Shown: positions 29,581-31,170 of the stretch, one piece after another | Numbering within the stretch: position 1 is the first letter of the stretch | Layout of the letters: each line of letters opens with the position of its first letter | DNA from: Myxococcales bacterium | GTDB taxonomy: Bacteria; Myxococcota_A; Polyangia; GCA-2747355 | Assembly (NCBI GenBank): GCA_020431405.1 | Contig: JAGQIK010000477.1 | Coordinates: forward strand, 1-34,271 | DNA: 34,271 bases | Direction: 5' to 3' | Made by a program: the position numbers and the translations under genes | Notes under the pieces: model-generated | Told to the model about the DNA's origin: nothing | The model's input: only the letters and a program-made list of their open reading frames with translations | Databases searched by the model: none

Positions 29581-30599
29581 CAGTTGTTCGGTGCTCCGGC
29601 GCAGATCCACGCCGCGATGGTGTCGACCTGTTGCTTGGCCAGGCTCACGCCGATCTTCGGCATCTGCGTGCCGCGGCAGAGGTTGATGCCGAGCAGCTTG
29701 TCGAGCAGGTAGCTGGAGGCGCCGGTGGTCGAGACCAGCTTGCGGCCGTCGGCGCATTGCTTCGACGTCACGCCGACGAGCTCTTGATAGGCGCGCGCGG
29801 TGCTCAGGTCGAGGCTCTCCTTGGGCACGATGCCGACGTGACAGCCGACGGTGGCGCACTGGCTGGAGAAGATCGGCTGCACGTCGCGCTTGAACGAGAC
29901 GCCGCTGATCGCGCACGTGCAGCTGCCGCCGTTGCAGCGCTGCGCCGCGCTGCAGGCCTTGTTGCAGCCGCCGCAGTGCTGATCGTTGCCCTGCGTGTCG
30001 ACGCAGGACTGACCGCACTGCGTCAGCGATCCGCAGTCCGCGGCACACGCGCCGTCGCGACAGACGGTGCCCGACGTGCACGGCTTGTTGCAGCCGCCGC
30101 AGTGGGCGCCGCTGGTATGCGTGTCGACGCAGCTTCCGCCGCACAGCGTCGTGCCGCTGGCGCAGAGATCAGGGCTCAGCGTGTCGACGCGGCTGTCGCT
30201 TGGCGGCGTTGGCGGTCCGTCGCCGCGCGGGCCGTCCACCGAGGCGTCGCTGCTCGGCGGCGATAGGTCTCGTACGTAGGCGCGAAGCAGCGCGAGCTGG
30301 CAACGCTCGGGCGCGGGCGGCGAGGGATGGGTTGCTTCGGCGAAGCGCTGCAGCGAGAGCGCGGCGAAGGGCGCGAAGCGCGCCTCGTCGTCGAAATCGA
30401 CGCCGCCCGGCGCGCCTTGCCGGGCGGCACCAGCCAGTGTGCTGGCGTGACAGGTGGTGCAGGTCGCTCCAAGGAAGGGACCGATATGATCGGCATATGT
30501 GACGCGAGCGGGCAGGGCGCAGTCAGGCGTGCTCGGAGCTGGGTCGTCGCTGCAACCGAAGGCTGTCAGCGCCGCCAGCACGAGACACGTCTGCCGCAC
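29580..30599 (-). CDS. Cytochrome-like lipoprotein with cysteine-rich repeats
   Basis: A 339-aa protein with lipobox LTAFGC (C16). A cytochrome-like CTTCH (47-51) lies in HIGPFLGATCTTCHASTLAG. Two Cys-rich repeats follow (about 146-185 and 189-228), each with the pattern CG.SCVDT......HCGGCNK.C, a duplication also visible in the DNA. Near the end, QPIFSSQCATVGCHVG has CX4CH (C248, C253, H254) rather than CXXCH; the following text (KIGVSLAKQQVDTIAAWICA) is typical of Myxococcota planctomycete-cytochrome-like domains. It is translationally coupled to the next gene, so both products probably form one envelope complex. Confidence 0.78.
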   Translation of the reverse strand: MRQTCLVLAALTAFGCSDDPAPSTPDCALPARVTYADHIGPFLGATCTTCHASTLAGAARQGAPGGVDFDDEARFAPFAALSLQRFAEATHPSPPAPERCQLALLRAYVRDLSPPSSDASVDGPRGDGPPTPPSDSRVDTLSPDLCASGTTLCGGSCVDTHTSGAHCGGCNKPCTSGTVCRDGACAADCGSLTQCGQSCVDTQGNDQHCGGCNKACSAAQRCNGGSCTCAISGVSFKRDVQPIFSSQCATVGCHVGIVPKESLDLSTARAYQELVGVTSKQCADGRKLVSTTGASSYLLDKLLGINLCRGTQMPKIGVSLAKQQVDTIAAWICAGAPNN

Positions 30600-30636
30600 G
30601 TTTAGGTCTGCGACCGACTGTGGTCTTGGATACGCA

Positions 30637-30660
30637 AAAGAGCCCCCGAGAGGGCTCTTT
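30637..30660 (-). terminator. Rho-independent terminator
   Basis: A perfect 9-bp stem, AAAGAGCCC (30637-30645) with GGGCTCTTT (30652-30660), and a 6-nt loop. Read leftward it is followed by a fourth T, then GCG. It would end the leftward transcript coming from the promoter at 31142-31170; read rightward it could also work. Confidence 0.75.
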
Positions 30661-30721
30661 CACGTCGAAAATCAGATTGATTGGACCGCTGACGCGGTCG
30701 ATGCAATTTGCGGGGACTAGC

Positions 30722-31087
30722 TCAGGGGACGCGCGCTGGATCGAAGGTGATGCAGCGATCGCTGGCATCGAGACGGCAGCATTGCAGAAACTGCTGCAGC
30801 GTGACCCCGGCGCGGCGAGGTTGGCGGTACCAGAAATCGAGGGCGCGACGCTTGGCGTCGACGCGGTCCTTACCCTCGAACGTGACTGGATGCTCTAGTT
30901 GGTACTTCCCACGGGAAAAACCCTCCCGGCAGCGATCGCCGGGATCCCGTAGGATCGTCGGGTGGCGCTACCGAAGCGCGCTCCCGATCGAGAACGCGCC
31001 AGAAAAAAGTGGTCTAGGCAGAAGCCTAGGCAGCGGTTCTAACGGCGGTTCTGGTTGATTGGGTTCCATCGGTCCTTGGCGTTCCAT
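30722..31087 (-). pseudogene. Small protein gene interrupted by one in-frame TAG
   Basis: From ATG at 31087, preceded by GAGG at 5-nt spacing, the frame encodes 39 residues beginning MERQGPMEPNQPEPPLEPLP. It then meets TAG (30970-30968) and continues in the same frame for 81 codons to TGA. The downstream part looks like real protein (RHPTILRDPGDRCREGFSRG and EHPVTFEGKDRVDAKRRALD), with codon use like its neighbours and no in-frame start of its own. I do not recognise the family. It is either a gene broken by a recent nonsense change, a readthrough site, or a sequence error. It has its own promoter and terminator. Confidence 0.5.
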
Positions 31088-31102
31088 CTGTTCCTCGACC
31101 CG

Positions 31103-31122
31103 GGCGGATCATCGGATCCGCC
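31103..31122 (-). promoter_or_regulatory. Leader hairpin before the interrupted small gene
   Basis: GGCGGATC (31103-31110) and GATCCGCC (31115-31122) form a perfect 8-bp stem with a 4-nt loop. In the leftward transcript it ends about 6 nt before the Shine-Dalgarno, so it could modulate translation. Confidence 0.55.
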
Positions 31123-31141
31123 ATCCCATCCTACATATATT

Positions 31142-31170
31142 CATATATTCGGGGGATTGGGAGCTGTCAA
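31142..31170 (-). promoter_or_regulatory. Near-consensus sigma70 promoter
   Basis: On the minus strand TTGACA (31170-31165) and TATATG (31147-31142) are separated by exactly 17 bp. The region is AT-rich in an otherwise very GC-rich window. Transcription should start near 31135 and run leftward into the small interrupted gene. It lies just behind the stop of murI. Confidence 0.7.

Follow-up and report, generated by a model that had tools for sequence, protein, structure and literature searches.

In prfB, the gene for release factor 2, translation begins in a short 0 frame with an early stop and shifts by +1, at about codon 26, into the frame of the functional protein; the site includes a Shine-Dalgarno element and is widely conserved, with losses. 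In Streptomyces, a rare UUA codon must be read for expression (UUA/bldA control), and in translationally coupled leader peptides a mini-ORF stops near the main coding frame. Described cases of programmed -1 ribosomal frameshifting in bacteria (dnaX, IS1/IS3-family elements and Bacillus cdd) combine a Z_ZZN-type tetramer with an upstream Shine-Dalgarno (PMC5009743, PMC4066793), for which one review gives a distance of 9-14 nt (PMC5009743). The review also describes an IS element in which one Shine-Dalgarno both initiates translation and stimulates frameshifting, and it associates transcriptional slippage with runs of 9 A or T (PMC5009743). According to a study of E. coli reporters, slippage on G_GG.G was not demonstrated and the G-run was suspected of acting as a Shine-Dalgarno (PMC4066793). 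Shifts in prfB that lie <50 nt from the start are said to have escaped a published frameshift scan (PMC3711429), and a supposed +2 frameshift at initiation is reported not to have been borne out by structures (PMC11497404). Judging by titles and the opening lines of abstracts, in a search that lay largely outside the subscription journals, we recognised no description of the gene presented here or of a bacterial -1 shift at codon 2.

The gene lies on a 34,271-nt stretch of a contig of a Myxococcales bacterium (the window), and its start region recurs in 17 genomes. It resembles bacterial -1 frameshifting systems in the direction of the frame change, the Z_ZZN-type tetramer and, less clearly because it is also the initiation signal, a Shine-Dalgarno at about the -1 distance. 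It differs from them in that the proposed shift would occur at codon 2 on G_GGR, the initiating Shine-Dalgarno is the sole candidate for an upstream stimulator, the search for a 3' structure was negative and a sizeable protein is encoded in the shifted frame only. With prfB it shares the short 0 frame, the early stop, the functional protein in the new frame, the Shine-Dalgarno element and wide conservation with losses; whereas prfB shifts by +1 and further into the gene, the change here would be -1 at codon 2, with a third codon that is mostly a rare sense codon and a stop of any kind. The double use of the Shine-Dalgarno proposed here is the same as in the IS element, but that system is a mobile element. 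As in coupled leader peptides, a mini-ORF stops near the main coding frame, yet a standard main-frame start lies within 15 nt of the stop in only three of the 17 loci (L022, L026 and L082). Finally, a rare UUA in a high-GC genome could be a control point as in Streptomyces, except that reading UUA here would prevent expression.

Signals around the gene

The features of the unit are as follows.

31142 to 31170, minus strand: promoter-like TTGACA-N17-TATATG (direct reading)
30968 to 30970, minus strand: TAG that ends an unconserved upstream frame, outside the gene (frame reading and relatives)
30922 to 30926, minus strand: Shine-Dalgarno GGAGG, 9 nt before GTG and 12 nt before GGA (sequence)
30895 to 30912, minus strand: 0-frame mini-ORF GTG GGA AGT ACC AAC TAG, five codons and stop (sequence)
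30907 to 30910, minus strand: proposed slip site G_GGA, reading GGA in frame 0 and GGG one base back (sequence pattern)
30722 to 30910, minus strand: conserved family protein in the -1 frame, 62 codons from GGG and stop (comparison)
30632 to 30665, minus strand: terminator-like stem-loop (shuffle test)

The sequence-only reading had proposed a compact unit in which a promoter, a leader hairpin, a 120-residue frame with one internal TAG and a terminator follow each other, and the compactness of the unit is supported. The promoter-like boxes were confirmed by direct reading (TTGACA at 31170-31165, a 17-nt spacer and TATATG at 31147-31142). A consensus promoter scanner scored none in the region because it requires a T at the last -10 position. 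By eye, TTGAC[A/T]-N16/17 boxes likewise precede the gene in three order relatives. The leader hairpin GGCGGATC-CGAT-GATCCGCC is present at 31122-31103 but unremarkable against shuffled sequences (z -1.44), 15 of 200 of which fold equally well with DNA parameters. The terminator-like stem is strong by the same kind of test (z -6.76, 0 of 200 shuffles, DNA parameters). Between the gene stop and this stem (30701-30667, minus strand) lies a dispersed element of ~30 nt, a hairpin GACCGC-GTCA-GCGGTC followed by CAATCAATCTGATTTT. By hand count, 33 of the 41 own-genome matches to the DNA of the unit fall on it, some 100% identical, and it is possibly a recurrent terminator or a REP-like repeat. Rfam at gathering scores returned nothing in the window, and ARAGORN no tRNA.

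The frame itself was also as described: ATG at 31087, 39 codons, the TAG, 81 codons and a stop at 30724-30722. Comparison with relatives does not bear out a single gene on both sides of the TAG. Similarity at the DNA level begins at ~30916 and covers the downstream part only. The stop that precedes this part differs (TAG in the window, TAA in G003), and in G001 and G002 the upstream mini-frame runs in a different register. Since the stop varies in kind and register among relatives, the TAG does not belong to the gene; the amber codon is incidental and marks nothing but the end of an unrelated upstream frame. Readthrough of the 120-residue frame, regulated or not, would account for the open frame that flanks the single TAG in the window. 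We rejected it as close to impossible, given that neither the upstream part nor the TAG is conserved and that pyrrolysyl-tRNA synthetase had no match above the family cut-off in the organism's own genome (two sub-cut-off matches only). The suspicion of unusual decoding is supported, in a form other than amber readthrough. What has to be explained is a -1 frame change beside a different start, ~60 nt past the TAG.

That start had been missed. The downstream part is coding and lacks an ordinary start, as had been proposed, but a better start, GTG at 30912-30910, is offset by one base from the frame of the conserved protein, and its own frame stops after five codons. Upstream of the corresponding start, all four order members carry a Pro-rich mini-frame (about E/D-D-x-K-P-P; 31087-30971, minus strand, in the window, and L010, L011 and L012). 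The nucleotides GGAAGAC..AAACCTCCG are found within or near this mini-frame in three of the four, and its ACCTCC could pair with a Shine-Dalgarno.

Distribution of the conserved gene

A DNA search of 39 genomes, the organism's own included, matched its own genome and G001, G002 and G003, the latter three in the downstream half only, and their downstream proteins are 56-63% identical to that of the window. Of 377 genomes sampled from the phylum, 43 had a match in a profile search; six of these matches were weak (G331, G064, G305, G198, G080 and G143; E 7.8e-4 to 9.1e-3) and were later dropped. By group, matches were obtained in 4/4 genomes of the order, in 6/317 of its class and in 30/57, 3/71 and 3/52 of three other classes, with one family match per listed genome. 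Two named Tectomicrobia records also carry the family; in the named-record search, 21 of 23 loci were dropped as having the same sequence as genomes already counted in the stretches compared by eye. A single-protein scan of genome contigs returned no relatives, and the L028 protein had no match among plasmid records. By sequence, the family that we label f29 takes in Lujinxingia vulgaris TMQ2 and a Lujinxingiaceae MAG. What is conserved is the downstream part, a gene that encodes a family of ~60 residues in Myxococcota.

Reading of the ORFs placed a murI-like gene before the conserved gene in all four order members, the window's copy matching Asp_Glu_race (Pfam). The flanks of L090, L092 and L099 look different by eye, and because neighbours differ in this way the genomic context yields no function. 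On the same strand of the window (29583-30599), a neighbouring gene encodes a protein rich in Cys that contains STIG1-like repeats and weakly matches cytochrome c.

Two start states

The 44 distinct loci divide into 27 with an ordinary ATG in frame and 17, the window included, with what we call the shift layout: a Shine-Dalgarno, an NTG, a GGG or GGA codon, a rare or stop third codon, an early 0-frame stop and, in the -1 frame, the family protein. The shift loci come from 17 genomes, eight families and four classes. NTG-GGR in the -1 register occurs in 17/17 shift loci and in 0/27 in-frame loci, and an in-frame ATG is missing from all shift loci except that of G003. The rule was framed on the first 42 distinct loci (40 genomes, L103 and L105; 27 in-frame, 15 shift), and the two added by a later scan of the own class obey it (L135 and L137, with TTG GGG AGT TCA AGA TAG and TTG GGG AGT CGC GGC TAA). 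On a 56-column tree the start states require about six changes, in a poorly resolved topology with 17 of 40 inner branches open. In G003 (L011, 1438-1650), an in-frame TTG-ATG start precedes GGG by seven codons, and at the core a stop and a start overlap in GTGA; this locus possibly represents a state between shifted and ordinary expression.

Recurrence of the arrangement bears on the earlier suggestion of a recently broken gene, and with it on sequencing error. Many of the genomes are draft assemblies, which would favour error or decay, but one and the same register is found in all 17 genomes, among them the one-contig G179 and the named strain record of L. vulgaris TMQ2 (L090), and the protein is conserved. 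A broken gene was therefore rejected, and error or decay as a whole is very improbable. We likewise rejected slippage by RNA polymerase. One G added in the G-run would restore the right frame in part of the mRNA, but the runs are just three (window, L025) or four G long, as against the 9 A or T of the review (PMC5009743), and we give this explanation little more credence than error.

In 16 of the 17 shift loci the Shine-Dalgarno ends 8-12 nt before the GGR codon, but it is at the same time the signal for initiation. L053 (G231) is the exception: there, by eye, ATG GGG TTA stands five codons inside a 0 frame whose ATG lies further upstream behind a Shine-Dalgarno of its own, and the proposed slip site may work away from initiation. 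Downstream, the coding frame is -1 (equally +2) relative to the start. Judged by its distance from the core, NTG-GGR looks like the protein's own start and not a separate leader. All eight loci of the in-frame family f46 begin with ATG GGA/GGG 39-42 nt before the core, and in the related shift loci L028 and L025 the ATG lies 41 and 44 nt, and GGG 39 and 42 nt, before it.

The preservation of NTG with its Shine-Dalgarno in 16/17 loci also speaks against direct initiation in the -1 frame at a non-standard codon (GTG or AUH, with the G-run as Shine-Dalgarno), for which the mini-ORF would be incidental. Such initiation could draw on an in-frame GTG or TTG in 10/17 loci besides G003, and on the remark about G-runs (PMC4066793). 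The positions of these codons are scattered, however, and 6/17 loci have none: no ATG, GTG or TTG precedes the core in the ORF2 frame of L023 (window), L021, L024, L025, L080 or L137. We regard this route as improbable.

Early stops and rare third codons

Every shift locus has a 0-frame stop, of any of the three kinds, after 2-10 codons, and in 13 of 17 it follows exactly five. The third 0-frame codon is TTA in eight loci, AGT in six, and TCA, TGT and TGA in one each. Codon use was taken from 400 kb of G000, G003, G049 and G179, four of the 17 shift genomes; in these, TTA ranks 60-61 of 61 and TCA and TGT rank 53-58, and AGT ranks 57 in G000, 54 in G003, and 50 and 48 in the two f29 genomes.

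We obtained chance rates from the 717 NTGGGR sites in the same 400 kb. A 0-frame stop falls within 10 codons at 14.8% of them (17/17 shift loci) and after exactly five codons at 2.6% (13/17), and codon 3 belongs to the rare/stop set at 5.2% (17/17), a comparison to be read with the relatedness of the shift loci, which are not independent, and with the definition of the rare set after the loci had been seen. Counted as eight families, stops within 10 codons throughout would arise with a chance of ~0.148^8, or roughly 2e-7. The combination of a Shine-Dalgarno, NTGGGR and a stop within 10 codons occurred at five sites on both strands of 434 kb (the 400 kb plus the window), one being the window's own. 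On the other side, AGT as codon 3 arises without selection when Glu (GAG) precedes a T-initial codon, and this counts against slippage.

Where -1-frame coding begins

We next consider the substitutions. Translated from GGG, the first ten codons of f29 loci give GVIQLIGKVF, GVIQLITKPF, GVIKLIQEVF and GVYQLVGRVW. For five distinct f29 sequences, the mean BLOSUM62 score was 2.83 in the -1 frame against 0.54 in 0 and 1.57 in +1; differences fell on -1 positions 1-3 at rates of 0.33, 0.26 and 0.56. This strong signal comes from the stop onward: codons 7-11 scored 2.42 in -1 against -0.72 in 0 and 0.25 in +1 (differences 22, 19 and 33 of 50), and codons 3-5 (three distinct sequences) scored 2.33 in -1 against 2.67 and 2.67. 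Across all 17 loci, codons 3-5 averaged 0.78 in -1, 1.57 in 0 and 1.58 in +1; the five-codon pool behind the first f29 comparison had covered 11 of the then 15 shift loci. Loci of the GTT/GTG type had 16, 12 and 13 differences of 45 at positions 1, 2 and 3 of codons 3-5, with no preference for -1. Across families, -1 codons 3-6 encode similar residues (KYQL, EYQL, EYRV, VIQL, VIKL, VIEL, VYQL, VSEL, VTQV, EFKI and ESRL; less so EYRR in L022 and ITLN in L025), partly because the DNA is alike. The substitutions thus establish -1 coding from about the stop onward (codon 6-7 in f29), but not the point at which the ribosome changes frame. Clear coding from codon 6 that goes undetected at codons 3-5 lowers the odds for slippage.

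The main and serious rival to slippage is termination followed by reinitiation. The mini-ORF would be translated to its stop (mostly codon 6), and the ribosome would restart nearby in the -1 frame at GTG or at a near-cognate codon (AUU, AUC, AUA or CUG), perhaps with GGGG(AG) as an internal Shine-Dalgarno. A stop after exactly five codons in 13/17 is easier to understand in this way than by slippage, and so is -1 coding that becomes evident only from about the stop onward. GTG overlaps the stop in L022 and L026 and lies 13 nt before it in L082, AUU or AUC shares one base with the stop in 7/17, and another AUH or CUG falls within 15 nt of it in five more loci besides L022. The suspected role of G-runs as Shine-Dalgarno in E. 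coli (PMC4066793) fits as well. Against these points, in 14/17 loci any ATG, GTG or TTG is more than 15 nt away from the stop, the window's locus and L053 offer neither these nor AUH or CUG near it, and AUH and CUG are probably common enough to occur there by chance. Reinitiation also leaves unexplained the rare third codon and the use of ATG-GGR as a real start in f46. We consider it a possible but rather unlikely account, ahead of the other alternatives.

A proposed -1 slip at codon 2

The best single explanation, which we hold to be somewhat more probable than all others together, is programmed -1 ribosomal frameshifting at codon 2 by tRNA-Gly slipping on G-GGR. The ribosome would initiate at NTG behind the Shine-Dalgarno and add Gly at GGR. 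A rare third codon, or a stop, would then wait in the A site during the slip, with the duplex of the initiating Shine-Dalgarno, 8-12 nt upstream, perhaps still holding the mRNA. Peptidyl-tRNA-Gly would move one base back, from GGR to a GGG made up of the start codon's final base and the GG after it, and translation in the -1 frame would yield the conserved protein (M-G-K-Y-Q-L-E-H-P-V-T-F... in the window). Where no slip takes place, translation would end after 2-10 codons and leave a tiny peptide. The frame could also be reached by a +2 hop from the start codon, in which case the product would lack the Gly.

We prefer slippage because NTG-GGR is present in 17/17 loci with GGG always one base back and a rare or stop codon next, because NTG-GGR looks like the family's own start (f46, L028 and L025), and because the Shine-Dalgarno distance nearly fits the range of 9-14 nt given in the review (PMC5009743). 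Against it stand the E. coli reporters, in which slippage on G_GG.G was not demonstrated (PMC4066793), and stem-loop folding of the 55 nt downstream in the 17 loci, which found no 3' stimulator (z -1.90 to +1.53); L053, whose NTG-GGR has no Shine-Dalgarno nearby, and G003, with its in-frame ATG and GTGA overlap, count against it as well. The sequences show the conserved protein and its register, NTG-GGR, the rare or stop third codon and the early 0-frame stop; from these patterns we infer the slip, its place and its efficiency, the pull of the Shine-Dalgarno and any regulatory purpose. One such purpose, which we put forward as a doubtful extension, would be a conserved switch at the earliest codon that permits a -1 shift: the initiating Shine-Dalgarno would pull the ribosome back while a scarce tRNA (Leu-UAA at UUA) or a release factor is awaited, giving the protein when the tRNA is scarce and the five-residue peptide when it is plentiful, opposite to bldA-type control, and the device would have been kept across four classes.

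Protein and fold

Searches of Pfam, NCBIfam, PHROGs and PDB sequences revealed no convincing relative of the protein, the best NCBIfam match having E 0.0056 (in 1 of 27 members) and the best PDB match E 0.04. AlphaFold2, run on an alignment with L028 first and 35 members (35 of 38 references used), predicted a confident strand-helix-helix-strand-strand domain (pLDDT 91.4); the window's own copy, with 27 members, reached pLDDT 79.4. Foldseek returned nothing at E <= 0.001. The best VIA-align match, 2ebb (48 residues, 2.5 A), had a Z of 4.2, too weak for a fold to be named.

Significance for the family

Comparison of the genomes indicates that a conserved small gene is started out of frame in 17 of them. 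Related genes occur in both states, with an ordinary ATG or out of frame, and the gain and loss of recoding are therefore open to study. Under slippage and reinitiation alike, such genes look start-less and are liable to be missed or mis-started. If reinitiation is true, non-standard codons preceded by a conserved five-codon ORF serve as the starts of a widespread family. If slippage is true, the choice of reading frame would be programmable as early as the first round of elongation; the stimulator would be the initiation signal itself, and the glycine codon involved could be present in any gene.
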